Source: a virus
Virus record (IMG/VR): IMGVR_UViG_3300021406_000167
Location: 1 to 24,988 of that record
Length of the DNA stretch: 24,988 nt
Reading direction: 5' to 3' (one strand)
This document shows, piece after piece, positions 8,057 to 23,035 of the stretch. Positions within the stretch are counted from its first letter, which is position 1, and the number at the start of each line of letters is the position of its first letter. Below the pieces are notes generated by a model, which saw only the letters and a list, made by a program, of their open reading frames with translations, was not told where the DNA came from and ran no database searches. The position numbers were made by a program, and so were the translations under genes.

Positions 8057-8434
8057 ATGAGCACGTCAGCGGAGCGGATGAGGGCCCTCCGGGCCCGGCG
8101 GGCCGCATCGGCTGAGCCGCGCGATGACGCGCCGCCCCTCGACCCGGTAGGGCCCGCCGTTGAGGCCTCGATCGCGGCGCTCGAGCTCGGCGACCGGGAC
8201 CAAGCGGCCGCGGCGCTGGCCCGCCGGTACGCGGAGGTCATGGACAACGCGAAGGACCCGGTGTGGGCGACCCGGTGGATCGGGCCGCTGCTGCTGCGGT
8301 CCCTCGAGGAGCTCGGCGCGACGCCGAAATCCCGTCCAGCGGCCAGGAAGAACCCCGGCCCGGCCCGGGAGAACCGGGTGGCGCAGCTGCGCACCGCCCA
8401 CGCGTCGGCGAAGGCGAAGAGGACGGCTAGCTGA
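8057..8434 (+). CDS. terminase small subunit-like protein
   Basis: ATG 8057 is chosen over the in-frame GTG 8051. The product of 125 residues is basic at both ends (MSTSAERMRALRARRA and a Lys/Ala/Arg tail). A central helical part (about 32-90) contains VGPAVEASIAALELGDRDQA and DPVWATRWIGPLLLRSLEEL. Short actinophage small terminases placed before the large subunit have this size and layout; the HTH is not obvious. Small terminase recognises the packaging site and hands DNA to the motor. The gene ends overlapping by eight bases with the convergent large-terminase gene, so both 3' ends are shared. The role is inferred mainly from position and shape. Confidence 0.6.
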   Translation: MSTSAERMRALRARRAASAEPRDDAPPLDPVGPAVEASIAALELGDRDQAAAALARRYAEVMDNAKDPVWATRWIGPLLLRSLEELGATPKSRPAARKNPGPARENRVAQLRTAHASAKAKRTAS

Positions 8435-9953
8435 CCATCCGGATGCCGGCGCGCTTCGGTTCGGGCAGGATCAGCGCGGTGGAGAGCGCCGCGGCCGCGG
8501 CGTAGGCGGCGTCGACGTGCCCGGCGCCGCGGCGGGTGAACCGCCAGCCGTCCGCCGCGTTCAGTTTGGCCGCCCCCTTGATGTGCGCGTCGAGGAGCGG
8601 GTCGCCGGGCTGGACGATCCGGCGGCCGCGGGTGAGCCCGGCGAGCTCCATGCACACCTCGGCTACCCGCGTCCCGGTCAGCTCGACGTACGCGGGTCGG
8701 CCGGGCCGGGCCCGCTCGAGCGGGACGGCCTGGACGCCGGGCGCTGGACGGAGGATGCCCGCGAGCTCGGCGGCGGGCCCGGTGGGGTACCAGGCGACGG
8801 CGCACGGCCGGATCCGGGCGATCTTCGCGGCGAGCTCGGCCCGGGCCGCGGTGGCGGAGTCCCATGCGGCGGCGATTTCGAGGCGGCCGCGGCCGTCGGG
8901 CATGCGGGCGGCGACAGCGAGGGTGGCGTGCTCGCCGTCGGGGGCGACGTCGAAGCCGACGGCGAGCCGCTTGCGGTAGGGGTCCATGTTCCCGGCCGCG
9001 TCGGTGCAGTCTTTCCAGGCGGCGAAGTTGACGGCGCCGTCGAGCTGCTCGACGCGCTGGCAGAGGACTTCGGTCCTGTAGATGGCTGGCGGGTCGGTGG
9101 TGAGCGCGGTCCGGATCGCGGCTTCGGAGACGGTGTGGCCGAGGCCGGGGTTGGCTTGGCGGATCTGGTCCCAGTCGTCGAGCGCGCAGTCGTCTTCGCC
9201 GGACCATTCGAACAGGCCGATGGACGGGTCGCGGCCGGACAGGGCGGCGTCGCGGAGCTGGTTGAGGACGACGGAGCCGTCGTCTCCGGCGTTGGACATG
9301 CACCAGATCTGGCTGTCGGGCCTGGCCATGGTGGTTTTGGAGAGGGCGGCCCACGCGTTCCAGTTCCGCTGTTCGCGGAGCTCGTCGATGTTGAGCTCGT
9401 CGATTGACAGGCCGCGGCCGGCTTTCCTGTTGCTGGCGGCGATCTTGTACCGGCCGCCGCCGGCCAGCGTCAGCGACTCGTCGTATTCGTCGTCGTCGTA
9501 GTCGAGCTCGCGGCCGTGGTCGATGTCGAGGCGGAACCATTCGTCGCCGTTGACGCGGCGGACCTGGGCGAGGTCCTCGCGGAGGTCGGGGCTGGCCTCG
9601 ATGGTTTCCAGGGCCATGGACCATTGCTCGCGGGCGAGGCTGACGTCCTGGGCGACGCCGAGGACCAGGCGGGCGCCGTCGATGTGGAGCCGCCACAGCG
9701 ACACGGTCCGCTTGACCGAGCTTTTCCCGTTCTGGCGGGCGACTAGGACGATGATCACGCGGAACCGGTAGAAGCCGTCCGGCTGCAGTTCCATCGCGTG
9801 GATGACGAGCCACCGCTGCCAGGGCAGCAGCGGTTCTCCGACGGTGTCGGCGAAGTCGGCGATCGCGTACCCGTGGGAGGTGCGCCGGTTCAGGGGCCGC
9901 AGCGGGGGTGTCCATAGCCGCGGCTGGGTCCGGCCGAGCAGCCTGGAAGCCAT
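8427..9953 (-). CDS. terminase large subunit
   Basis: The 508-residue protein is the packaging ATPase and nuclease. PLLPWQRWLVIHAMEL (41-56) is the usual entry motif. VARQNGKS (71-78) is the Walker A variant typical of this actinophage branch. NIDEL (188-192) is the Walker B acidic pair, and SNAGDDGSVVL (220-230) is the coupling C-motif region. The C-terminal nuclease begins at AVGFDVAPDGEHATL (about residue 326), with the catalytic Asp in GFD, and ends near GHVDAAYAAAAAL. It makes staggered or headful cuts and pumps DNA into the prohead with portal. Unlike every other head gene here it is on the minus strand, ending tail to tail with the small subunit and starting next to a divergent control region. 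Confidence 0.95.
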   Translation of the reverse strand: MASRLLGRTQPRLWTPPLRPLNRRTSHGYAIADFADTVGEPLLPWQRWLVIHAMELQPDGFYRFRVIIVLVARQNGKSSVKRTVSLWRLHIDGARLVLGVAQDVSLAREQWSMALETIEASPDLREDLAQVRRVNGDEWFRLDIDHGRELDYDDDEYDESLTLAGGGRYKIAASNRKAGRGLSIDELNIDELREQRNWNAWAALSKTTMARPDSQIWCMSNAGDDGSVVLNQLRDAALSGRDPSIGLFEWSGEDDCALDDWDQIRQANPGLGHTVSEAAIRTALTTDPPAIYRTEVLCQRVEQLDGAVNFAAWKDCTDAAGNMDPYRKRLAVGFDVAPDGEHATLAVAARMPDGRGRLEIAAAWDSATAARAELAAKIARIRPCAVAWYPTGPAAELAGILRPAPGVQAVPLERARPGRPAYVELTGTRVAEVCMELAGLTRGRRIVQPGDPLLDAHIKGAAKLNAADGWRFTRRGAGHVDAAYAAAAALSTALILPEPKRAGIRMVS

Positions 9954-10323: not shown

Positions 10324-10634
10324 CCGGCATCCCGCTGCGTGTCATCGACTGCCCGCCTCCGGCCTACGCGCCGCTGATCGCTGACGGCACGATCCAGCCG
10401 GGCGACTGCTGGCGCGACCCGGACTGGGATGCGGACGGCCGCGAGTGCTGGACTGTCGTGCTGCCGAACCGGCGCGCCTGGCGTACGACACTCCATGCGT
10501 CCGACGGTGACCGGGGCATGTGGGCTGTCACCGGTACCGCGCCGGATCTCACGGTCAGCCCGTCGATCTTCGATCACTCGCCCGGCAATGAGTGGCATGG
10601 CTGGATCCGCAACGGCGAGCTGGTGCCTGCATGA
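10320..10634 (+). CDS. DUF6527-like protein
   Basis: ATG 10320 overlaps the previous stop as ATGA. The 104-residue protein has WTVVLPNRRAWRTTLHASDG in the middle and then GTAPDLTVSPSIFDH and EWHGWIRNGELVPA near the end. The order of a Trp-rich strand, PSI motif and HGWxxxGE end is what I remember from the DUF6527 family, often found near phage structural or lysis genes, with unknown function. There is no membrane segment. It is coupled to portal by an ATGA overlap. Confidence 0.6.
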   Translation: MTGIPLRVIDCPPPAYAPLIADGTIQPGDCWRDPDWDADGRECWTVVLPNRRAWRTTLHASDGDRGMWAVTGTAPDLTVSPSIFDHSPGNEWHGWIRNGELVPA

Positions 10635-12091
10635 AGTCGGGGCTGCGGCGGGCGTTCCGCAATGTGGGGCCGGTGCCGATGGGTGGCGGCGGCGGGATGA
10701 TGCTGCTGCCGGGCCAGGCGGCGGGCCAGAACACGGACCTGACGCTGATCCGCGCGTACAAGAGCAACGGCACGGTCCAGAGCAATGTGAGCCTGCTGGC
10801 GAGCGCGACGGCGGCGCAGGACTGGCAGTTGTTCCGCGCTCAGCCGAAGGATGGCCGGGTCCGGTACACGACGTCGGAGCGCGGCAGTGACCAGCGCACC
10901 GAGGTTGTGCAGCATGCGGCGCTGAACGTGCTGCTGAACCCGTCGATGCTGAACGTGGGCGGGATCAAGATCCCGTTCTGGGACCGGATGGGCCTGTTCG
11001 AGATCAGCCAGATCTACATGGAGCAGACCGGCAAGGCCTACTGGGTCGTGGACCGGGGCCCGATGGAGTCGTCGATTCCGCTGGGTTTGTGGCCGGTGCG
11101 GCCGGACCGGATGACGCCGGTGCCGGACCGGGACAAGGTCCTGGCGGGCTGGGTGTACACCGCCCCGGATGGGCGTGAGCGGGTGCCGTTGCTGCCGACG
11201 GACGTGATCTGGAACCGCTACCCGGACCCGGAGGACATCTACGGCGGCTGCGGTCCCATTCAGTCGGTCCTGACCGATATCGAGGCCGCTAGGTATGCCA
11301 GCGAGTGGAACCGGAATTACTTTGTCAACAGCGCTGAGCCGGGCGGCGTGATCCAGGCGGATCACGCGATGGACGACGAGGAATTCAACCAGTTCATTAA
11401 CCGGTGGCGGGACACGCACCGGGGCGTGGCGCGGGCGCACCGGATCGCGCTGCTTGAGGCGGGCATGACGTGGGTGCCGAACCCGCACAGCCTGAAGGAC
11501 ATGGACTTCGCCACTTTGCGCGGGACGATGCGGGACATCATCCGCGAGGCCCTCGGAATGCACAAAGTAATGACGGGCGTGGTCGAGGATGTCAATAGGG
11601 CGAATGCGCAGACGGGTGAAGAGATCTTCTCGTCATGGAAAATCGACCCGCGTCTTAAGCGGTGGAAGAACGTTCTCAATTCTCAGTTCCTGCCGCTTTT
11701 CGGTACGGCTGGCACCGGCGTGGAATTCGATTATGTGTATCCGACGGTCGCGAACCGCGAGCAGGATAACGCCGAGCTGACGACCAAGACCGCCGCGGTT
11801 GCCGTCCTGGTAGGGGCCGGGTTCGACCCGGATGACGCGTGCCAGGTTGTCGGCCTGCCGCCGATGAAGATCGCGGAGAAGGCGACGCAGCAGCCCGCGT
11901 TGCCGCCCGGCTGGGTGCCCGCGGCGCCTGCAGGCGGCGACGGCGCGGCCGCCCCGGCCGGACCGGCCGGACCGGGCCGGGGCGCGAACGCTGAGGACGT
12001 GCTGCAGGCGCGGGCCGGATGGGACTCGCCCGCGTGGCAGGCGCTCATGCGGGAGCGGGCGGCATTCAACCGGATGGCGGGGGTGCGATGA
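10631..12091 (+). CDS. portal protein (HK97 family)
   Basis: ATG 10631 overlaps the preceding TGA and gives 486 residues, close to the family norm. The fold's marks are an N-terminal LIRAYKSNGTVQSNVSLLAS, then HAALNVLLNPSM, the wing region with YMEQTGKAYWVVDR, and LWPVRPDRMTPVPD. Next come VIWNRYPDPEDIYGGCGPIQ, the helix ASEWNRNYFVNSAEPGGVIQ, and REALGMHKVMTGVVEDVNRA near the crown. A low-complexity Ala/Gly/Pro stretch (about 425-455) precedes the C-terminal helix. Portal forms the dodecameric DNA gate, docks the terminase motor and later the head-tail connectors. It is the first large gene of the rightward head operon. Confidence 0.94.
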   Translation: MKSGLRRAFRNVGPVPMGGGGGMMLLPGQAAGQNTDLTLIRAYKSNGTVQSNVSLLASATAAQDWQLFRAQPKDGRVRYTTSERGSDQRTEVVQHAALNVLLNPSMLNVGGIKIPFWDRMGLFEISQIYMEQTGKAYWVVDRGPMESSIPLGLWPVRPDRMTPVPDRDKVLAGWVYTAPDGRERVPLLPTDVIWNRYPDPEDIYGGCGPIQSVLTDIEAARYASEWNRNYFVNSAEPGGVIQADHAMDDEEFNQFINRWRDTHRGVARAHRIALLEAGMTWVPNPHSLKDMDFATLRGTMRDIIREALGMHKVMTGVVEDVNRANAQTGEEIFSSWKIDPRLKRWKNVLNSQFLPLFGTAGTGVEFDYVYPTVANREQDNAELTTKTAAVAVLVGAGFDPDDACQVVGLPPMKIAEKATQQPALPPGWVPAAPAGGDGAAAPAGPAGPGRGANAEDVLQARAGWDSPAWQALMRERAAFNRMAGVR

Positions 12092-12159
12092 CGACCACCC
12101 TGACCGCAATGGCGTGCGCCGCGTACCTCATCGGTCACGGAAAGGGGACGGCCGGATGA
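12088..12159 (+). CDS. possible 23-residue micro-protein between portal and protease
   Basis: An ATG at 12088 overlaps the portal stop (ATGA), and its TGA at 12157-12159 overlaps the protease start (ATGA). The peptide MTTTLTAMACAAYLIGHGKG plus three residues is mildly hydrophobic. It may be real, or a coupling device that brings ribosomes to the protease start, which also has AAAGGGG upstream. No homology can be judged at this length. Confidence 0.4.
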   Translation: MTTTLTAMACAAYLIGHGKGTAG

Positions 12160-13496
12160 GCGCTCAGGTTTACCCGCTGAAGTGCCGGATCCGCAACGAG
12201 GACACCGGGATTACCCGAATTGACGTCTATGACGATATCGGGGAAGGCGGCTGGTTCTCCGAGGGGCTGACCGCCAAGGCGTTCACGTCGACGATGGCCA
12301 GCGTCAAAGGGCCGCTGGAAGTGCACATTAACTCCGGCGGCGGCGAGGTCTTCGACGGCATCGCGATCGGCAACGCGATCCGCGCGCACAAGGGACCGGT
12401 GACCACGGTCGTCGACGGCATCGCCGCCTCGATCGCGTCGGTGATCACGCAGGCCGGCCAGGAGCGCGTGATGCAGCGCGGCTCGATGCTGATGATCCAC
12501 GACGCCAGCGGGTTCGAGTACGGCAATGCCGACGAGATGGCGAAGATGGCGCAGACGCTGGACCAGGTGTCGGGCAACCTCGCGGACATCTACGCGGAGC
12601 GGTGCGGCGGCACGGCGGACGAGTGGCGTACCGCGATGAAGGCGGAGAGCTGGTACACCGCGGAGCAGGCTGTGGCTGCGGGCCTGGCCGACCGGGTGAG
12701 CGACGACCAGGCCGAGCTGCCCGCGGGCATGGACATCGCGGCGTTCCGGCAGGTGCCCGGCCGGATCGCGGCGCGCCTGCGGAAGATGCCGCAGGCCTCG
12801 GCGCCGCGTGCCGCCGGCCCGGTGATCGTGGCCGCGGACGGCAACCACGCGCCGATGACGGGTTCTCACAGCCACGGCCATCCCGCGTACGGAAGCCAGG
12901 GCGGCGACTCGACCCACGCCCATGACCATTCTCACGACGACGACGCCAGTCACCAGCACTCGCATGATGACGGCGGGGACGAAGGCGACGGCGCCAGCGC
13001 GGACGACCGCACCCCGCGCGAGGTTCGCGGCCGCGACGGCCGCATCCTCGGCGTCGAGTCGATGCCGCTGCTGGACAAGGCGATCGCCGTTCATCACACG
13101 GCGACCGTCGATACCGCGTGGGACGGCCCTGCGGCCGTCGCCGCGATGCCCGCCGAGTACGCGGCCCTGCACTACTGCCATGCCTGGCAGAGCGCCGACG
13201 CCGACGCGAGCTCGCATACCCCGGGCGATGACGACGCGGACGACACGAAGGGCAACTTCAAGTTCCCGCACCACGTCAAGGAGGGCGGCCCGGCCAACCT
13301 CGCGGCGTGCCGGAACGGGCTGGCCAGGCTGTCCTCGGCGGACATCCCGGCGGGCGACGACGCCGGGGTGAAGGCGCACCTGCAGGCGCACCTGGACGAC
13401 GGCGGCGACGCCGATGACCACGCAGACCTACACCTAGACCTCTCCGGGATCGACCTGGAGCAACTCGGTAACGCTCTGAAAGGGGCACTGGCATGA
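12156..13496 (+). CDS. ClpP-type prohead protease with His-rich linker and extra C-terminal domain
   Basis: Residues 1-200 are a ClpP/S49-like head-maturation protease: EVHINSGGGEVFDGIAIGNA (55-74), nucleophile Ser92 in DGIAASIAS, and His115 in MLMIHDAS. The expected acidic third residue lies near Glu164 in MKAESWYTAEQAVAAGLADR. The protease trims the capsid scaffold domain during prohead maturation. Residues ~235-275 are a His/Asp-rich linker (SHSHGHP, HAHDHSHDDD, HQHSHDD). Residues ~288-415 form a second domain with WDGPAAVAAMPAEY and KGNFKFPHHV, a domain seen in other phage protein tails. At 446 residues it is about twice the length of a simple protease, and the tail may act as scaffold. 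ATG 12156; it overlaps the capsid gene by four bases. Confidence 0.88.
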   Translation: MSAQVYPLKCRIRNEDTGITRIDVYDDIGEGGWFSEGLTAKAFTSTMASVKGPLEVHINSGGGEVFDGIAIGNAIRAHKGPVTTVVDGIAASIASVITQAGQERVMQRGSMLMIHDASGFEYGNADEMAKMAQTLDQVSGNLADIYAERCGGTADEWRTAMKAESWYTAEQAVAAGLADRVSDDQAELPAGMDIAAFRQVPGRIAARLRKMPQASAPRAAGPVIVAADGNHAPMTGSHSHGHPAYGSQGGDSTHAHDHSHDDDASHQHSHDDGGDEGDGASADDRTPREVRGRDGRILGVESMPLLDKAIAVHHTATVDTAWDGPAAVAAMPAEYAALHYCHAWQSADADASSHTPGDDDADDTKGNFKFPHHVKEGGPANLAACRNGLARLSSADIPAGDDAGVKAHLQAHLDDGGDADDHADLHLDLSGIDLEQLGNALKGALA

Positions 13497-15013
13497 CAGC
13501 AGGCACCGCGGTCCCGCAGACGGCCGAGGAGTTCGAGGAACTGATCAGCGACGTCCCGCGGCTTGGTGCCGCGCTGAAGGACGGCACGTTCCCGGGGCTG
13601 GTCAAGGATTACGTGGCCAAGTTCTCCGCGAAGAACGAGGAGACGGTCGCGCAGTTCCGCGAGCAGCTGCAGCTGGGAATGCAGAGCTTCCTGCAGGACC
13701 AGGCCGCGCAGGGCTTCGGGCCGCAGGCCGGCTGGCGGCCGGGCAGCGGGCCCGCGCTGACGGGCCGGGACGCGCGCCGGGCCCGGGCGGTCGCGAACTC
13801 GGCGCTGCCCGACGCGGCACGGCAGGCCGCAAAGCAGGGCCTGTTCAGCCCGCGGGCGATGGGCGCGGCCGTCGACGACGAGCCGTACGCGGAGTCGTTC
13901 GGCAAGTTCCTGTACACCTGCCACAAGGCGGAGAAGGCCGCGTCCAAGCGCGGCGACACCGAGGAAGTCACCCGGATCCAGGACTTCAAGGCCCGGCTCG
14001 ACGCGGCCCGGCTGCAGAACGCCATGGCCGAGCGGATCCCGTCCGAGGGCGGCTTCCTGGTGCCGGAGTCGCTCCGCAGCGAGATCCTCATGGTGGCGCT
14101 GGAGACCGCGGTGGTGCGGCCGCGGGCCCGGGTGATCCCGATGGACTCGCTGCGGGTGCCGTTGCCTGCCATCGACGACGTTAGCCACGCCAGCAGCGTG
14201 TACGGCGGGGTGCAGGCATTCTGGACGGAGGAAGGCGCGGCGCTGAGCCAGAGCGCGCCGAGCTGGGGCCGGGTGGTCCTCGAAGCCAAGAAGCTGACCG
14301 CCTACACCGCGATCCCGAACGAGCTGCTGCAGGACAGCATCACGCCACTGGATGCCTGGTTCAATCAGTTCTACCCGACAGCGATTTCCTGGTTCGAGGA
14401 CGTGGCTTTCCTCACCGGCACAGGGGTGGGCGAGCCGGAAGGCGTTCTCAACGCGCCGTCCGCCGTGCGCGTCCCGGTCCAGACCGACAACGCGATCACG
14501 TTCACCGACATCGCGACCGCCTACACCCGGATGTGGCCGGCGTCGCTGAACAACGCGGTGTGGATCTGCGCTCCGGACGTGCTGCTGCAGCTGCTGCAGC
14601 TGGCGGTCACTCCCGTCTCGCACGGCACCACGCAGTCCGTCGCGCCGCCCGGCTGGCTGATGTCCGGCCAGGCAATGGGCCACCCCGGAGGCGGGAACGG
14701 CGACGGCACGAACTACCAGCTCCTGGGCCGCCCGCTGATCGTCTCGGAGAAGATGCCGTCTTCGGGCAGCGGGAACACCACCGTTCCGGGCGCTCTGACC
14801 TTCGTTGACCTGAGCTACTACTTGCTCGGGGATAGGCAGTCGATGCAGGTCGCTTCGTCCGATGAGTACCTGTTCGGCCAGGACATGGTGGCCTACCGCG
14901 TGATCGAGCGGCTCGACGGGCGCACCTGGCTGCGCAGCGCGATCACCCCGGAAAACGGCAGCACCAACACACTGAGCCCCGTCGTCAAGATCGACACCAC
15001 GGCCACGAGCTGA
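13493..15013 (+). CDS. major capsid protein (HK97 fold) with N-terminal scaffold domain
   Basis: The 506-residue product has a helical N-terminal ~185 residues rich in Glu/Gln/Ala (QTAEEFEELISDVPRLGAAL, EETVAQFREQLQLGMQSFLQ), matching the HK97-type delta/scaffold domain removed by the protease. The capsid core starts near ERIPSEGGFLVPESLRSEIL (182-201). It continues with VVRPRARVIPMDSLRVPLPA, the E-loop region FWTEEGAALSQSAPSWGRV, LTAYTAIPNELLQDS, FLTGTGVGEPEGVLN and a C-terminal MVAYRVIERLDGRTW. All fold marks are present. It forms the icosahedral shell. ATG 13493 overlaps the protease stop, placing protease and substrate in one coupled unit. A related gene lies at 16125. Confidence 0.95.
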   Translation: MTAGTAVPQTAEEFEELISDVPRLGAALKDGTFPGLVKDYVAKFSAKNEETVAQFREQLQLGMQSFLQDQAAQGFGPQAGWRPGSGPALTGRDARRARAVANSALPDAARQAAKQGLFSPRAMGAAVDDEPYAESFGKFLYTCHKAEKAASKRGDTEEVTRIQDFKARLDAARLQNAMAERIPSEGGFLVPESLRSEILMVALETAVVRPRARVIPMDSLRVPLPAIDDVSHASSVYGGVQAFWTEEGAALSQSAPSWGRVVLEAKKLTAYTAIPNELLQDSITPLDAWFNQFYPTAISWFEDVAFLTGTGVGEPEGVLNAPSAVRVPVQTDNAITFTDIATAYTRMWPASLNNAVWICAPDVLLQLLQLAVTPVSHGTTQSVAPPGWLMSGQAMGHPGGGNGDGTNYQLLGRPLIVSEKMPSSGSGNTTVPGALTFVDLSYYLLGDRQSMQVASSDEYLFGQDMVAYRVIERLDGRTWLRSAITPENGSTNTLSPVVKIDTTATS

Positions 15014-15046: not shown

Positions 15047-15469
15047 ATGGCAATGGAAGGCCTGGGGCGGCTGTTCAACGTCGTCCCGATCGCGGCTGGC
15101 AAGAAGATCAGCATGAAGGACTGCCAGGGCATCACGTTCGTGTGCACCGGCGATGACACGTTCACGCTGAACAACGGGGCGACCTACAACGGCGCCACCA
15201 CCACCCTCGCGACGATCACCGACTACTACACCTCCACCGCCACCGACGGCAGCGCGGCGTGGGTGTTCGCGACGCAGGCGGCGGCCGACAACGTGGCGAT
15301 CGCGTCGGGGTCGGTGGCGTTCTACGTGGACTCCGGTGACCTGGCGGCCTCGGACGAGTACGTCGAGGTGACGGTCGGCGGGTCCGGGCTTGTCATGGCC
15401 ATCCTGCATGACCTGCTGGTCCAGAGGGCGCCCGCGAACCTGCGGACCGTCTCCGGCTCGAGCTCGTAA
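15047..15469 (+). CDS. capsid-associated/decoration-like protein
   Basis: ATG 15047 follows GAAGGAGACCTAG, a strong Shine-Dalgarno, so it is translated independently at a high rate. The 140-residue protein is beta-rich with many Thr/Ala/Gly (VCTGDDTFTLNNGATYNGAT, TITDYYTSTA, SGSVAFYVDSGDL). It ends with a helix (VMAILHDLLVQRAPANLRTV). Its position directly after the major capsid gene and its compact beta composition fit a head decoration or stabilising protein. No signature motif proves this; a minor structural protein of other type is possible. Confidence 0.6.
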   Translation: MAMEGLGRLFNVVPIAAGKKISMKDCQGITFVCTGDDTFTLNNGATYNGATTTLATITDYYTSTATDGSAAWVFATQAAADNVAIASGSVAFYVDSGDLAASDEYVEVTVGGSGLVMAILHDLLVQRAPANLRTVSGSSS

Positions 15470-15480
15470 AGGGGGGCGTC

Positions 15481-16122
15481 ATGGCAGACCTGAAGATCAG
15501 CAAGGAAGCGGGCGAGACCGGCGGCACGGCGGAGACGGCGGGCCAGCTGGAGGACTTCCTCCGCAAGGACGGCCTGTACGCTGACCCGCTGTCGGGGTCG
15601 CTGCTGGACGGCGGTCCGGCGGCGAACGGCTACCTGGCGTGGACCGGTGACCCGCAGCTGGCGACGACCGCGTTCCAGGGCACGAGCACCGATGTCTACG
15701 TCCGGCGGCTCTTCGCGCCGCGCAGCACGACGACGACGTACGCGGACATGTGGTGCACCACCCTGAACTCGGGCACGGTCACGCACGCCTACGCGGGCTT
15801 GTACGACATGCTGGGGAACCAGCTGGCGGCCAGCTCCGACATCGAGTCGGCGTTCACCGGGACCGGGGTCCAGACGTTCACCTGGACGACGCCCTACGCG
15901 CTAGTAGCCGGGAACTACTACTACGTCGCCTATGCGATCGCCGACACCACGGCGGCGCCGTCGATGCTGGCCACGCCGACCGCGGCGGGCATCAACGCGA
16001 ACCTGCCGACGCACGTCTACCGGTACGCGACCTACTCGACGTCGACGACGATCCCGTCGTCGATCACGATCGCGTCGATGTCGGCGACGACGACGACCCC
16101 GGCGTGGATCGGCCTGCGCTGA
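15481..16122 (+). CDS. beta-sandwich structural protein, possible head fibre
   Basis: ATG 15481 lies after AAAGGGGGGCGTC. The 213-residue protein has an N-terminal charged ~50 residues that may anchor to the capsid. A jelly-roll type beta domain of ~160 residues follows: VYVRRLFAPRSTTTTYADMW, HAYAGLYDMLGNQLAASSDI, FTWTTPYALVAGNYYYVAYA, ending SMSATTTTPAWIGLR. The pattern of an outer strand, LY(D), then a Y-rich strand after VAGNYYYVA is what I have seen in phage fibre and appendage proteins that bind carbohydrate. Lying between two capsid-fold genes, it is more likely a head fibre than a tail fibre. Ligand and exact role are inferred. Confidence 0.55.
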   Translation: MADLKISKEAGETGGTAETAGQLEDFLRKDGLYADPLSGSLLDGGPAANGYLAWTGDPQLATTAFQGTSTDVYVRRLFAPRSTTTTYADMWCTTLNSGTVTHAYAGLYDMLGNQLAASSDIESAFTGTGVQTFTWTTPYALVAGNYYYVAYAIADTTAAPSMLATPTAAGINANLPTHVYRYATYSTSTTIPSSITIASMSATTTTPAWIGLR

Positions 16123-16124
16123 CC

Positions 16125-17297
16125 ATGACCGCCGAGCCGATCGAGGGGCAGCTGCTGAGGGCCGGGCCGTTCCCCGTCCCCGGCGGCTGGCGCTCGGCCC
16201 TGTACCGGGACGACGCGCCCGGCGCGGTGCTGGACTCGCAGCCGTGGGCCCGGGACTGGCGGTCGTTCATGCGGGCCGTGAATGACCCGAATGACGCCAC
16301 GGCCCGGCGTTTCATCGGCAACGCGATGAGCGAGCGCCTGCCCGGCGAGGGCGGCTTCCTCGTCCCGGAGGGTCTGCGGAGCGAGGTGTTCGCCTACCTG
16401 GCCCCGGCGATCATCCGCCCGCGGTCGGGGGCCGTGTACCCGATGTCGACGCTGCGGCTCGGCGTGCCCGTCCTGGACAACCTCTCGCAGGCCAGCGGCA
16501 AGCAGGCGCTGGGCGGCCTGACGTTCGCGGTCACGGAAGAGGGCGCGGGCATCACGCCGACGACCCCGGCACTCGGCCGCCTGGTCCTGGAGGCGCGCAA
16601 GATCGCGGCCTACCTGGAGTCGGTGCCTAACGAGTTCACCGATGACGCGGCGGGCGCGTTCAGCGACTTCCTGGCCCGCGTGATCGGCCTGGGCTACGCG
16701 TGGGAGGAAGACGACCTGTTCATCTCGGGGACGGGCATAGGCGAGCCGCAGGGGCTGACGAATGCCCCGTGCGCCGTGTCGGTGACCCGGGCGAACAGCG
16801 GCGACGCTCCGGTCGACGCGGACATCATCGCCATGTTCAAGGCGCTCGCGCCGCCGAGCAAGCAGCACGGCCTGACATCCGGTGTCACGGATGTGGCGTG
16901 GCTGGTGTCGTCGACCGTGATGGACGCGCTGCTGGAGCTGTATTACCTGCCTGCCGGGGCGTCCCCGACGTCGGGGACGCCGGTGTCGGTGCCGTCGTGG
17001 TTCAGCATGGGCGACGGCGACCGGATCGCGCCGAGCTTCATGGGGCTGCCCGCGTTCGTGACCGACCACCAGCCCGCCGCGGGGACGGCCGGGGATCTGA
17101 TCCTCGCCGATCTGCGGCATTACGCGATCGGCGACCGGATGGCCCTGACGATCGAGCGCTCCCAGAAGGGCGCCGGGTTCGTCACCGGTACGAGCAACTG
17201 GCGAGTCAAGAGCCGCGTCGACGGGCGGTACCAGGTCCTGAGCTCCTACACCACCGGGGCGAATCAGGTAGTCAGCCCGGTCGTAGTCCTGCACTGA
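16125..17297 (+). CDS. second HK97-fold capsid protein without scaffold domain
   Basis: ATG 16125 (two bases after the previous stop) gives 390 residues. The same capsid landmarks appear in the same order as in the protein of 13493: ERLPGEGGFLVPEGLRSEVF, IIRPRSGAVYPMSTLRLGVP, FAVTEEGAGITPTTPALGRL, KIAAYLESVPNEFTDD, FISGTGIGEPQGLTNAP, HYAIGDRMALTIERS and a closing strand set. It lacks the ~120-residue helical scaffold part, starting only about 65 residues before the EGGFLVP motif. So it is a clear paralogue, not a fragment: the core is complete and uninterrupted. It may form a minor shell component, a variant subunit (for example with different geometry), or be used under different conditions. 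Alternatively it replaces or competes with the first. Both are in one transcription direction. Confidence 0.9.
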   Translation: MTAEPIEGQLLRAGPFPVPGGWRSALYRDDAPGAVLDSQPWARDWRSFMRAVNDPNDATARRFIGNAMSERLPGEGGFLVPEGLRSEVFAYLAPAIIRPRSGAVYPMSTLRLGVPVLDNLSQASGKQALGGLTFAVTEEGAGITPTTPALGRLVLEARKIAAYLESVPNEFTDDAAGAFSDFLARVIGLGYAWEEDDLFISGTGIGEPQGLTNAPCAVSVTRANSGDAPVDADIIAMFKALAPPSKQHGLTSGVTDVAWLVSSTVMDALLELYYLPAGASPTSGTPVSVPSWFSMGDGDRIAPSFMGLPAFVTDHQPAAGTAGDLILADLRHYAIGDRMALTIERSQKGAGFVTGTSNWRVKSRVDGRYQVLSSYTTGANQVVSPVVVLH

Positions 17298-17648: not shown

Positions 17649-17829
17649 GGGCCTGGTGGTGAAGCCGGAGATCACGGCGGTGGTCGAGCACCGGAAGGCG
17701 TCGAGTGACTGCTGCGGCGCGAAGCTGCGGGCGGCGGACGTGCCGCCGGAGGGGTTCGAGTGCACGGGGTGCGGGGAGCCGTGCCGCCGGGTTCTGGGTG
17801 AGCCGCAGGAGGTGACTGCACGTGGCTGA
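17641..17829 (+). CDS. small Cys-rich zinc-ribbon-like protein (62 aa)
   Basis: ATG 17641 is in an eight-base overlap with the previous gene's end. The product holds Cys24-Cys25 (SSDCCGAKLR) and Cys41, Cys44 and Cys48 (ECTGCGEPC), a knuckle pair typical of a metal-bound ribbon. The N-terminus VVKPEITAVVEHRKAS is a short strand-helix. The function is unknown; it probably works with the neighbouring ribbon protein and overlaps the following start by eight bases. Confidence 0.55.
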   Translation: MGEGLVVKPEITAVVEHRKASSDCCGAKLRAADVPPEGFECTGCGEPCRRVLGEPQEVTARG

Positions 17830-18196
17830 TGGCCTGTCGGTGGCGGTGGCGGATGCGGCGCTGGCCACGATCGTCGGGACGGACGCGAACAACATCCAGG
17901 CGCATACCGGGGCGCCGGGCGCGTCGGGTACCGCGAATGTGTCGAGCGTGACTACGAGGCCTGGGGTGACGTGGGCGTCGCCGTCGGGCGGGTCGGTGTC
18001 GAATAACGGGACTAACCCGGCGTGGACGAACTGGGCGGGCACGAACGGCGAGGTGGTGACGGACATCTCGGCGTGGTCCGGTGCGTCGGCGGGGACGTTC
18101 GGGTTCTCGATGCAGCTGAACTCCAGCGTGACGATGGACACGGGTGACTCGCTGACCGTGGGGCCGATCACGGTCACGCTCCCGACCGCGTCGTAG
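17822..18196 (+). CDS. phage fibre-like/structural protein
   Basis: GTG 17822 is preceded by AGGAGGTGACTGCAC, a very good Shine-Dalgarno, which fixes the start. The 124-residue product has a short N-terminal helix (GLSVAVADAALATIVG) then a Thr/Ser/Gly/Trp-rich beta section: IQAHTGAPGASGTANVSSVT, TWASPSGGSVSNNG, AWTNWAGTNGEVVTDISAWS and a final SLTVGPITVTLPTAS strand. This matches what I remember of short actinophage tail-fibre/minor structural proteins that carry the same W(A/T)NW-like core. The true location on the virion (head or tail) cannot be told. Confidence 0.6.
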   Translation: MADGLSVAVADAALATIVGTDANNIQAHTGAPGASGTANVSSVTTRPGVTWASPSGGSVSNNGTNPAWTNWAGTNGEVVTDISAWSGASAGTFGFSMQLNSSVTMDTGDSLTVGPITVTLPTAS

Positions 18197-18209: not shown

Positions 18210-19322
18210 GTGACCACCCTCAGCCTCTTCGGCACCAACGGCAACGGCGCGAACGGCCCCGGCTTCTCCACCGGATTCAGCGGCAACTACATCGCCGGAA
18301 CCCTGTTCAAGGTCACCTCGGCCGGTTACCAGCTAACCGGGTACGGCTTCTGGCGGGCCGACAACAGCCAGTCCGCCTCGGCCAGCTTCGCGCTCTGGAA
18401 AGCGACCGGCACCGGCACCGGTACCTTGGTAGCCAGTTCGTCGGCATCGCTGAGCAGCATGACCGCCGGGGCGTGGAATTACGTCTCGCTGGGTACGCCC
18501 ATAGCGCTGACCAGCGGGCAGGTCTACAAGGTTCAGGTCGGGCTGGTTAACAACTTCCCGCTGACCGGCGGCCAGTTCGCGTCAGGCGGCACCTACGCGG
18601 CGGGGATCACCAACGGGGTCCTGACGGCGTTCTCCGACTCCAGCGGATCGGCGCCGGATTCCTTTAGTGACGTCCAATGCAGTTTCGCGACCAGTACCGC
18701 CGACCCGACCGCCGCCTACGCCACCAGCGCGGACGGAGGTTACAACGCCTGGATCGACGTGCAGATCACCCAGGCCGGCGGCACGAGCCACACCGCTACG
18801 GCGGCGCTGACGATCACCCCGGTGTTCTCGGCCGGCCGTACGCGCGGGAAGTTCCGCACGGGCGCGCTCACGGTGACGCCCTCGTTCAGCGCGGCCCGGG
18901 CCCGCGGCAAGTACCGTACCGGGTCGCTGACGGTCACCCCGTCGTTCTCCGCCGCCCGGCTGATCAACCACGGCCGTCACGCCAGCCTGCTGGTGGTCCC
19001 GTCGTTCTCCGCCGCCCGGACCGCCGCGCACGTCCGGACCGCTTCCCTGCTGGTGGTCCCGTCGTTCAGGGCGGTCCCGTCCGGCGGCGCGACCCCAGCC
19101 GTTCAGCAGGGTTCCTGGTGGGGCCTGGTGTCGGTCCTGAGGCAGTCCCGCGAGGAGTTCCAGGCCTACGTCTCCCGTCCGCCGATGGCGTGCCCGAACG
19201 ACGGCGAGCCGCTGACCAACGCCCCGGCCGTCCCGTCCGCGTCGGGTATCGAGCTGTTCTGCAAGTACTGCGGGTTCCAGTACCCGCGTGACTGGGTGCC
19301 GCCGTCGAGGCCGTGGTACTGA
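18210..19322 (+). CDS. appendage protein: DUF4082-like domain, 20-residue repeats, zinc ribbon
   Basis: GTG 18210 gives 370 residues with three parts. Residues 1-190 read as a DUF4082-like beta-sandwich (GTLFKVTSAGYQLTGYGFWR, SFALWKATGTGTGTLVASSS, GTPIALTSGQVYKVQVGLVN). Residues ~199-290 are five near-identical 20-residue repeats with core LTVTPSFSAAR or LLVVPSFSAAR. The last ~47 residues hold CPNDGEPL and CKYCGFQYPRDW, a zinc-ribbon-like end known from actinophage appendage proteins. A surface-exposed, ligand-binding role with a repeat stalk is likely; which structure carries it is unknown. Codon bias is like the other structural genes. Its stop is followed by the second copy of the paired control motif. 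Confidence 0.65.
   Translation: MTTLSLFGTNGNGANGPGFSTGFSGNYIAGTLFKVTSAGYQLTGYGFWRADNSQSASASFALWKATGTGTGTLVASSSASLSSMTAGAWNYVSLGTPIALTSGQVYKVQVGLVNNFPLTGGQFASGGTYAAGITNGVLTAFSDSSGSAPDSFSDVQCSFATSTADPTAAYATSADGGYNAWIDVQITQAGGTSHTATAALTITPVFSAGRTRGKFRTGALTVTPSFSAARARGKYRTGSLTVTPSFSAARLINHGRHASLLVVPSFSAARTAAHVRTASLLVVPSFRAVPSGGATPAVQQGSWWGLVSVLRQSREEFQAYVSRPPMACPNDGEPLTNAPAVPSASGIELFCKYCGFQYPRDWVPPSRPWY
18804..19088 (+). repeat. five 60-bp in-frame coding repeats
   Basis: Units begin at 18804, 18864, 18924, 18984 and 19044 (the last partial). Each encodes a 20-residue unit with core (A/S)L(T/L)(V/I)(T/V)P(S/V)FSA. Neighbouring units share long exact stretches such as GTCCCGTCGTTCTCCGCCGC, indicating recent duplication, and the number may vary between relatives. 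Confidence 0.85.
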
Positions 19323-21789: not shown

Positions 21790-22280
21790 TGGCCGGCCTC
21801 GACGTCGACGCGGTCGTCGCCCTGTACGACGCGGTGGTTTCCCATGCCATGGCCGTCGGCCTGTTCAGCAACCGGGTCACCGACCATGAGCCGCTGAACC
21901 CGCCGTCGACGGGGCTGTCGTGCGCGGTGCTCCTCGGCCCGCTCGTGCCGCTTCCCCGCGCGTCCGGACTGCGGAAGACATCAGGGCGGCTGGAGTTCCA
22001 TGTCCGCGTCTACTCGCCGGCGCCGCAGCTCCCGGCGGCCGGGATTGACCGGGGGATGCTGAAGGCCGTGGCCACGCTGATGGCCGCGTACTCGGCTGAC
22101 TTCAGCCTGGTCACCGGCAGCGTCGCGGAGGGGCTGGTCAACATGATCGACCTGCTCGGCGCGTACGGGACGCCGCTGTCCGCGCAGCCCGGGTGGCTGA
22201 CCCAGGACAGCGTCCCGTTCCGGGTCACCGACATCGTTCTGCCTCTGATCCTCAACGACATGTGGAGTCAGGCGTCATGA
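21789..22280 (+). CDS. tail terminator-like protein
   Basis: ATG 21789 overlaps the preceding stop as TGATG; an in-frame GTG three bases earlier would add one residue. The 163-residue protein has an N-terminal helix (DVDAVVALYDAVVSHAMAVG), a strand block with SCAVLLGPLVPLPRASGLRK, LEFHVRVYSP and a C-terminal strand-turn (VPFRVTDIVLPLILNDMW). This alpha/beta plan and its place just before the tail-tube gene match the tail terminator (gpU-like) that caps the growing tail and joins it to the neck. No catalytic residues are expected. It overlaps the tail gene by four bases. Confidence 0.7.
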   Translation: MAGLDVDAVVALYDAVVSHAMAVGLFSNRVTDHEPLNPPSTGLSCAVLLGPLVPLPRASGLRKTSGRLEFHVRVYSPAPQLPAAGIDRGMLKAVATLMAAYSADFSLVTGSVAEGLVNMIDLLGAYGTPLSAQPGWLTQDSVPFRVTDIVLPLILNDMWSQAS

Positions 22281-23035
22281 CCAGCACGAAGACTAGCGGC
22301 CTCGGCCATCATTTCGCGTTCGGCGGGTACCTGATCGGCGGCGACATCCAGTCGGCCGACATGCACGGCGGTATCGCGCCCCTGGACGTCACCGACATCA
22401 CCCAGTCCGCGCACAGCCGGATCGGGGGCCTGCGCGACGGCGAGATCAGCGTGGTCGCGTACATGAACCCGGCCGCGGCCCAGGAGCACGCGGCGTTCTC
22501 CCCGCTGACCCGCGCCGACGTTCTCACCATGTACGTGGCCGGGTCGACGGTCGGCGGCCCGGCGCTGTCGCAGAACAGCCTGCAGCTGAACTACGACCCG
22601 ACCAGGGCTCCCGATGGCTCGCTGACGGAAAAGGTCGACTGCCAGGCGGACCGGTACGGGCAGGAGTGGGGTGTCCTGCTGACGCCGGGCCCGCGGACCG
22701 ACACGGCGGCGACGAACGGCGCCAGCTACAACCAGGGCGCCGCCACCGCGTTCGGCGCGCAGGCCTACCTGCAGGCGATCGCGCTCACCGGCACCGACGT
22801 CACGGTCACGATCCAGCACTCGGCGAACAACTCCAGCTGGTCGACGCTGATGGCGTTCACCGAGATCGTCTCGGGCAACAGCAACCTGCCGCAGTCCGCG
22901 CAGCGCATCAGCATCAGCAACAGCTCGACGGTGGATCAGTACCTGCGGGCGATCACCACCACGTCGGGCGGGTTCACCAGCTTCAAGTTCATCGTCGCGA
23001 TCAACATCAACCCGATCGCAGGGGTGGTCTTCTGA
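22277..23035 (+). CDS. major tail protein
   Basis: ATG 22277 overlaps the previous stop as ATGA. The 252-residue product begins TKTSGLGHHFAFGGYLIGGD, moves through a tube-like core (ITQSAHSRIGGLRDGEISVV, then AYMNPAAAQEHAAFSPLTRA), and then has a C-terminal immunoglobulin-like domain (about 155-252). That domain contains YLQAIALTGTDVTVTIQHSA, FTEIVSGNSNLPQSAQRISI and VDQYLRAITTTSGGFTSFKF. A tube domain followed by a surface beta domain is typical of actinophage tail-tube proteins. It forms the stacked rings of the tail. The next gene starts in a TGATG overlap. Confidence 0.85.
   Translation: MTSTKTSGLGHHFAFGGYLIGGDIQSADMHGGIAPLDVTDITQSAHSRIGGLRDGEISVVAYMNPAAAQEHAAFSPLTRADVLTMYVAGSTVGGPALSQNSLQLNYDPTRAPDGSLTEKVDCQADRYGQEWGVLLTPGPRTDTAATNGASYNQGAATAFGAQAYLQAIALTGTDVTVTIQHSANNSSWSTLMAFTEIVSGNSNLPQSAQRISISNSSTVDQYLRAITTTSGGFTSFKFIVAININPIAGVVF

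Follow-up and report, generated by a model that had tools for sequence, protein, structure and literature searches.

An anciently duplicated HK97-fold capsid gene, kept beside the major capsid gene in a phage lineage, and its probable role as a minor shell protein

The head module and its two capsid genes

The window analysed here is a virus record of 24,988 bases (IMGVR_UViG_3300021406_000167, positions 1 to 24,988), with a GC content of about 69%. It contains a normal head module, in the order terminase (minus strand), portal, ClpP-type protease, first capsid protein (CP1), two small genes, second capsid protein (CP2), and then head and tail genes. The genes are as follows, with E values after the profile names.

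8427 to 9953, minus strand: terminase large subunit (PHROG 9, 6.4e-59)
10592 to 12091, plus strand: portal protein (PF04860, 6.5e-43; PHROG 2662, 2.9e-55)
12114 to 13496, plus strand: ClpP-type head maturation protease (PF00574, 8.3e-28; PHROG 2976, 2.1e-72)
13493 to 15013, plus strand: CP1, major capsid protein of 506 amino acids, predicted HK97 fold with a fused N-terminal scaffold (delta) domain (PF05065, 8e-43; PHROG 10, 2.7e-45; AlphaFold2 model)
15047 to 15469, plus strand: head-operon gene of 140 amino acids between CP1 and CP2 (orthologues conserved in the family)
15481 to 16122, plus strand: DUF4082-like gene of 213 amino acids between the capsid genes (DUF4082, 0.0077, weak and below the cut-off)
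16125 to 17297, plus strand: CP2, second capsid protein of 390 amino acids, predicted HK97 fold without the coiled-coil scaffold part (PF05065, 2.7e-23; PHROG 10, 1.5e-21; AlphaFold2 model)
17822 to 18196, plus strand: head protein or head-fibre-like protein (PF23140 Gp80, 2e-10; PHROG 240 head protein, 3.2e-16)
18210 to 19322: gene with a weak resemblance to DUF4082 (8.7e-6, below the cut-off)
22193 to 23035, plus strand: major tail protein (PHROG 9522, 6e-23)

The terminase gene is oriented against the portal and head genes; in two relatives (L065 and L066) the portal is likewise inverted relative to the capsid gene. Another record of 37,237 bases (L003, IMGVR_UViG_3300050821_006032) encodes proteins 98-100% identical to those of the window from the middle of the 15047 gene onward, and so represents the same virus or a nearly identical one.

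Both capsid reading frames are intact, as had been proposed for the second copy; start codons were assigned by alignment and inspection. The two proteins align by BLASTP with 32% identity over 403 columns (182 bits, E 7e-57) and carry the capsid landmarks in the same order, in agreement with the original prediction that they are paralogues. Phage_capsid (PF05065) is the only Pfam domain in either protein, scoring 147.3 bits in CP1 and 83.2 bits in CP2 against a curated cut-off of 24.2. Both also match PHROG 10, major head protein, and CP2 additionally matches PHROG 617. A sequence search of the PDB with the two proteins returned distant capsids only, with no T4 capsid chain among the matches.

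Structures were predicted for CP1 (pLDDT 79.0, pTM 0.71) and CP2 (pLDDT 85.8, pTM 0.81) using AlphaFold2. Both models are HK97 folds, with Z near 19 against solved capsids of this fold. The best solved matches of both are gene transfer agent (GTA) capsids: against 6tb9, VIA-align gave Z 18.9 over 252 residues (rmsd 3.7) for CP1 and Z 18.8 over 248 residues (rmsd 3.4) for CP2. The CP2 model keeps the full fold, including the E-loop, spine helix and P domain. Profile, fold and the setting beside portal and protease genes thus place both proteins among the HK97-fold phage major capsid proteins. Domain-wise counts of the positions at which they have diverged gave no clear concentration in any domain.

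A single fibre-like gene had been described between the capsid genes. There are in fact two. The product of the first has no Pfam or PHROG match; its orthologues (31-86% identity) adjoin the capsid gene in most loci, including single-capsid loci, and it is possibly a decoration or cement protein. The second gene is variable within the family. The gene at 18210-19322 contains internal repeats (SLTVTPSFSAARxxGKYRTG), and the products of this gene and of 15481-16122 may be head-surface fibres or decoration proteins. The end of 18210-19322 (positions 19110-19322) encodes a short module at the C-terminal end that looks like a CxxC-like zinc ribbon (CPNDGEPLTNAP...FCKYCGFQYPRDW). This module recurs across the family and in single-capsid relatives, and is found directly upstream of CP2 in L011, L012 and L014; it is a shuffled tail module, perhaps a docking tag.

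Distribution, age and selection

IMG/VR was scanned with CP2 and with a CP2 alignment, and the matches were classified using two profiles. CP2 was found on 52 contigs, a few of them near-identical; the records of this lineage are metagenomic fragments. CP1 is present on 42 of these contigs, always upstream and on the same strand (41 genes, and an end fragment of CP1 in L031), and nine others start close to CP2 and are therefore cut off nearby. The one real exception is L184, which has a CP2-type capsid with an unusual N terminus and 6.8 kb of upstream sequence in which no CP1 was detected. Whole-record searches were made of 11 records spanning both genes, up to 71.8 kb in length, and each gave exactly two capsid matches.

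The exception has some further peculiarities. The CP2-type protein of L184 (6913-8496), the sole capsid found there, begins with a long extension of unrelated sequence, and shortly downstream of it there is a tape-measure-like gene. Its sister, L180 (262-1467), is cut at the contig start. CP1 was possibly lost in this lineage, or a prophage may have been rearranged. In L004 (3133-4506), CP2 continues past its usual end for about 64 residues of low-complexity, arginine-rich sequence, possibly because of a lost stop codon or an assembly frameshift.

Gene order within the pair varies: CP1 and CP2 may be adjacent, or separated by one to several genes, and in five loci (L015, L019, L020, L029 and L035) the CP2 start overlaps or abuts the CP1 stop. 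In four single-capsid relatives (L036, L039, L048 and L050), the sequence continues for about 8 kb beyond CP1 and contains no CP2. When 84,980 bacterial and archaeal genomes were scanned with the CP2 profile, no clear CP2 was found; the matches were single capsids only, mostly from Streptomyces, Kitasatospora, Actinomadura, Nonomuraea and other Actinomycetota. Among isolated phages, Streptomyces phage Dagobah is the sole noteworthy relative, and it has one capsid gene. Given these relatives, the hosts are probably soil actinomycetes.

In a mixture-model tree, CP2 forms one clade with support of 100/100, and CP2 together with the CP1 family forms one clade, again at 100/100, against the single-capsid actinobacterial prophages and phage Dagobah. 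The same three records (L034, L176 and L182) are basal in both the CP1 and the CP2 trees, and CP1 and CP2 have therefore travelled together since the duplication. The duplication probably followed the branching off of the four single-capsid relatives, a placement that an AU test leaves unrejected (p 0.38). CP1 and CP2 are 37.4% identical when compared within phages and 37.3% when compared between phages, so the split is old and shared. Gene conversion between the two genes was also considered, and was rejected since there is no excess identity within a phage. Distances among CP1s and among CP2s are correlated (r 0.58, Mantel p 0.0005), an agreement that is only broad and that linkage alone could give.

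CP2 evolves about twice as fast as CP1 (root-to-tip 2.04 vs 0.91). Close CP2 pairs have dN/dS values of 0.08-0.27, similar to CP1, which indicates purifying selection; only close pairs were used because the all-pairs synonymous estimate levels off at about 69% GC. These results bear on the suggestion that CP2 is a redundant, decaying duplicate or a recent capture, the latter being one of the options in the original prediction, which had also named decay of the gene in relatives, along with virions made of the first protein only, as evidence that would count against its proposal. Duplicates usually decay, which is all that speaks for this suggestion. Decay is contradicted by the dN/dS values, and CP2 is open in every contig that contains it at full length, with neither relaxed selection nor broken copies. 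Recent capture is contradicted by the tree, in which CP2 is a single clade inside the CP1 lineage's own family, and by the equality of the identities. We therefore regard this suggestion as very improbable. It is concluded that CP2 is a real, anciently duplicated capsid gene.

Scaffold, maturation junction, A-domain loop and translation signals

The features that distinguish or unite the two proteins are listed here, all on the plus strand.

13493 to 13822: CP1 residues 1 to about 110, a mostly helical scaffold part that CP2 lacks (CP1/CP2 alignments; model helices 11-72 and 92-114)
14018 to 14083: CP1 junction NAMAERIPSEGGFLVPESLRSE, putative maturation cleavage region (direct repeat with 16320-16385; conserved in alignments)
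14654 to 14728: CP1 A-domain loop W388-G412, containing a Gly/Asp-rich expansion of about 8 residues that is typical of CP1 in two-capsid phages (loop-length comparison across capsid sets)
16320 to 16385: CP2 junction NAMSERLPGEGGFLVPEGLRSE, counterpart of the putative CP1 cleavage region (same direct repeat; conserved in alignments)

In the joint alignment, CP2 begins at about CP1 residue 110. The scaffold part is absent from every CP2 aligned, including that of the basal L034. If a fused scaffold is taken to be about 100 or more helical residues ahead of the mature N-arm, CP1 has one and CP2, which has no coiled-coil part, does not. The claim that only CP1 has a scaffold domain holds for CP1 residues 1 to about 110, but not for the whole delta domain, the end of which CP2 retains: its residues from about 43 to 68 align structurally with HK97 prohead I from residue 79 onward.

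Both proteins have the sequence NA.SER.PSEGGFLVPE, which is preceded by about 180 residues in CP1 and about 68 in CP2. No other stretch is as well conserved between the two genes, even at the DNA level, where it forms part of a 66-nt direct repeat (14018-14083 and 16320-16385) that is 76% identical. The propeptide that HK97 removes is about 104 residues long (PMC9024508), and the junction is on this basis likely to be the processing region of both CP1 and CP2.

Conservation of this motif is relevant to the idea that CP2 acts outside the virion, as a separate compartment or as a decoy or interference factor. Without its scaffold part CP2 does resemble the encapsulins in architecture, and its model matches them with a VIA-align Z of about 15. 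However, phage and GTA capsids are its nearest structural matches, its gene always follows CP1 in the head operon, where CP1 is present, with start and stop overlapping or abutting in some loci, and no cargo gene was recognised nearby. Family 2B encapsulins are characterised by a ligand-binding domain and a cargo gene in the operon; neither was recognised here, and the surrounding genes encode portal, protease, head and tail proteins. A role outside the virion is accordingly improbable, and CP2 is much better regarded as a component of the shell: we consider it probably a minor protein that co-assembles with CP1.

The A-domain loop shows a strict difference between the capsid sets. It is 22-25 residues long in 53 of 53 CP1s of the two-capsid lineage (some of these being on contigs that end before CP2 could be seen), 16-17 in four of four single-capsid relatives, 13-15 in 45 of 45 CP2s, and 14-16 in 36 outgroup capsids, apart from three at 20. 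A single evolutionary split lies behind the co-occurrence of the expansion and CP2, which therefore count as one correlated event rather than as independent replicates. By topology, W388-G412 would be the loop that follows helix alpha-6 and, in HK97-type proteins, is directed towards the middle of the capsomer; in the model it lies between helix 361-368 and strand 413-417 with low pLDDT, and its placement at the capsomer axis comes from this topology rather than from coordinates. In SPP1, the A-loops close the opening at the centre of the hexon and behave differently in pentons (PMC6813328). In T4, the A-loop of gp23 is unusual and stabilises hexamers, and the mutations that allow gp23 to replace gp24 at the vertices map to the gp23 A domain (PMC9958956).

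A shell in which CP2 has no fixed positions would contain hexamers and pentamers of mixed and variable composition. There is a precedent in the Streptomyces lydicus Family 2B encapsulins Enc1 and Enc2, which co-assemble with irregular tiling (PMC12407261), and the N-arm core is to a large extent common to CP1 and CP2, with 12 of 25 positions conserved alike. Like CP1 and CP2, Enc1 and Enc2 are HK97-fold shell paralogues encoded together. However, the encapsulin partners are about 70% identical and the CP1-CP2 pair, at about 37%, is far more diverged; the encapsulins are moreover cellular, form small shells and have extra ligand-binding domains, whereas CP1 and CP2 have portal, protease and tail genes around them. 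A loop found only in CP1 and a scaffold lost from all CP2s suit separate roles better, and a mixed shell is in our view unlikely, although it is the strongest of the alternatives.

The CP1 genes have a strong and conserved Shine-Dalgarno sequence (CTGAAAGGGGC, CTGAAGGGAGC and the like), whereas most CP2 starts come close after a stop codon or have no Shine-Dalgarno sequence. The mean pairing energy is -8.9 kcal/mol for CP1 and -5.3 kcal/mol for CP2, against a background of -3.5 (p 5e-6), and the site is stronger at CP1 in 18 of 22 phages. Exceptions with a decent site at CP2 are L017, L018, L023 and L030. The weaker sites suggest that CP2 is produced in smaller amount than CP1. Together with the loop expansion confined to CP1, this asymmetry points to CP2 as a minor, specialised shell subunit.

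A few-copy role of a different kind would also suit weak translation signals and a missing scaffold: CP2 might cap or surround the portal vertex, or switch the size or shape of the head. Against this, the complete HK97 fold of CP2 is more than a cap needs, and there is no sign of two genome sizes among the records, none of which is shown to be complete. We consider this slightly less likely than a mixed shell. A place at the vertices has even or slightly better than even odds.

A candidate vertex protein and its parallel in T4

To our knowledge, in nearly all HK97-fold capsids one flexible protein makes both hexamers and pentamers. HK97 itself, the GTA capsid Rcc01687 and phage Dagobah are of this kind. 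They resemble the present system in the fold of CP1, the fused delta domain and the neighbouring ClpP-like protease and portal, but have one protein where there are two capsid genes here.

T4 is the only virus known to have two HK97-fold proteins in separate roles, according to a 2025 paper (PMC12407261), and in the open-access literature we found no phages beyond T4 with two HK97-type major capsid genes. T4 gp24 arose from gp23 by duplication, has about 20% identity to it, and forms eleven pentameric vertices (PMC9958956), gp23 forming the hexamers. The two systems are alike in having two HK97-fold paralogues from a duplication within one set of head genes, and in the shorter propeptide of the second paralogue: gp23 loses 65 residues and gp24 loses 10 (PMC9958956), to be compared with the 180 and 68 or so that precede the putative cleavage region here. 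They differ in that the T4 scaffold proteins are separate, whereas here CP1 carries the scaffold as a fused part and CP2 lacks it, and in that gp24 forms the vertices, a position that is proposed for CP2. CP2 is thus gp24-like in being a paralogue in the same genome with a shorter propeptide, but shows no sequence match to the gp23/gp24 family. CP1 and CP2 belong to PF05065 and to an actinophage-type capsid clade, with no Pfam match to the T4 capsid family and no T4 capsids among their sequence matches; the pair would therefore be a case independent of T4.

The explanation that we favour, with a probability of roughly 0.6 for the whole, is that CP2 is an old duplicate built into the shell together with CP1 as the minor protein of the two, most likely at the pentameric vertices. 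The major capsid gene would have been duplicated, probably after the single-capsid relatives split off. CP1 would have retained its fused scaffold and remained the main protein of the shell, and CP2 would have dropped the coiled-coil part, diverged at about twice the rate, and been kept ever since. The lattice of CP1 and scaffold would recruit CP2, which the same ClpP-type protease would probably process at the shared junction. CP2 would then fill a special class of positions, most likely 11 of the 12 pentameric vertices, the twelfth being the portal, and CP1 with its enlarged A-domain loop would have become specialised for hexamers. Of the readings offered in the original prediction, such a division of labour between penton and hexamer is the best supported, although unproven; its basis is the shortened propeptide, the weak translation signal, the loop found only in CP1, and the parallel with T4. 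It is about an even bet that this lineage, with its fused scaffold, made an independent second invention of a dedicated vertex protein while CP1 concurrently became hexamer-only by enlargement of the A-domain loop.

A second lineage, unrelated to T4, with a conserved pair of capsid proteins would make it possible to ask how a capsid protein is altered once it abandons one of two roles, and the close single-capsid relatives offer a natural before-and-after comparison. The A-domain loop provides a precise sequence marker, which changed at about the step of the duplication. A two-protein shell with the scaffold on one subunit only would be useful for studying how scaffold-less subunits are recruited.
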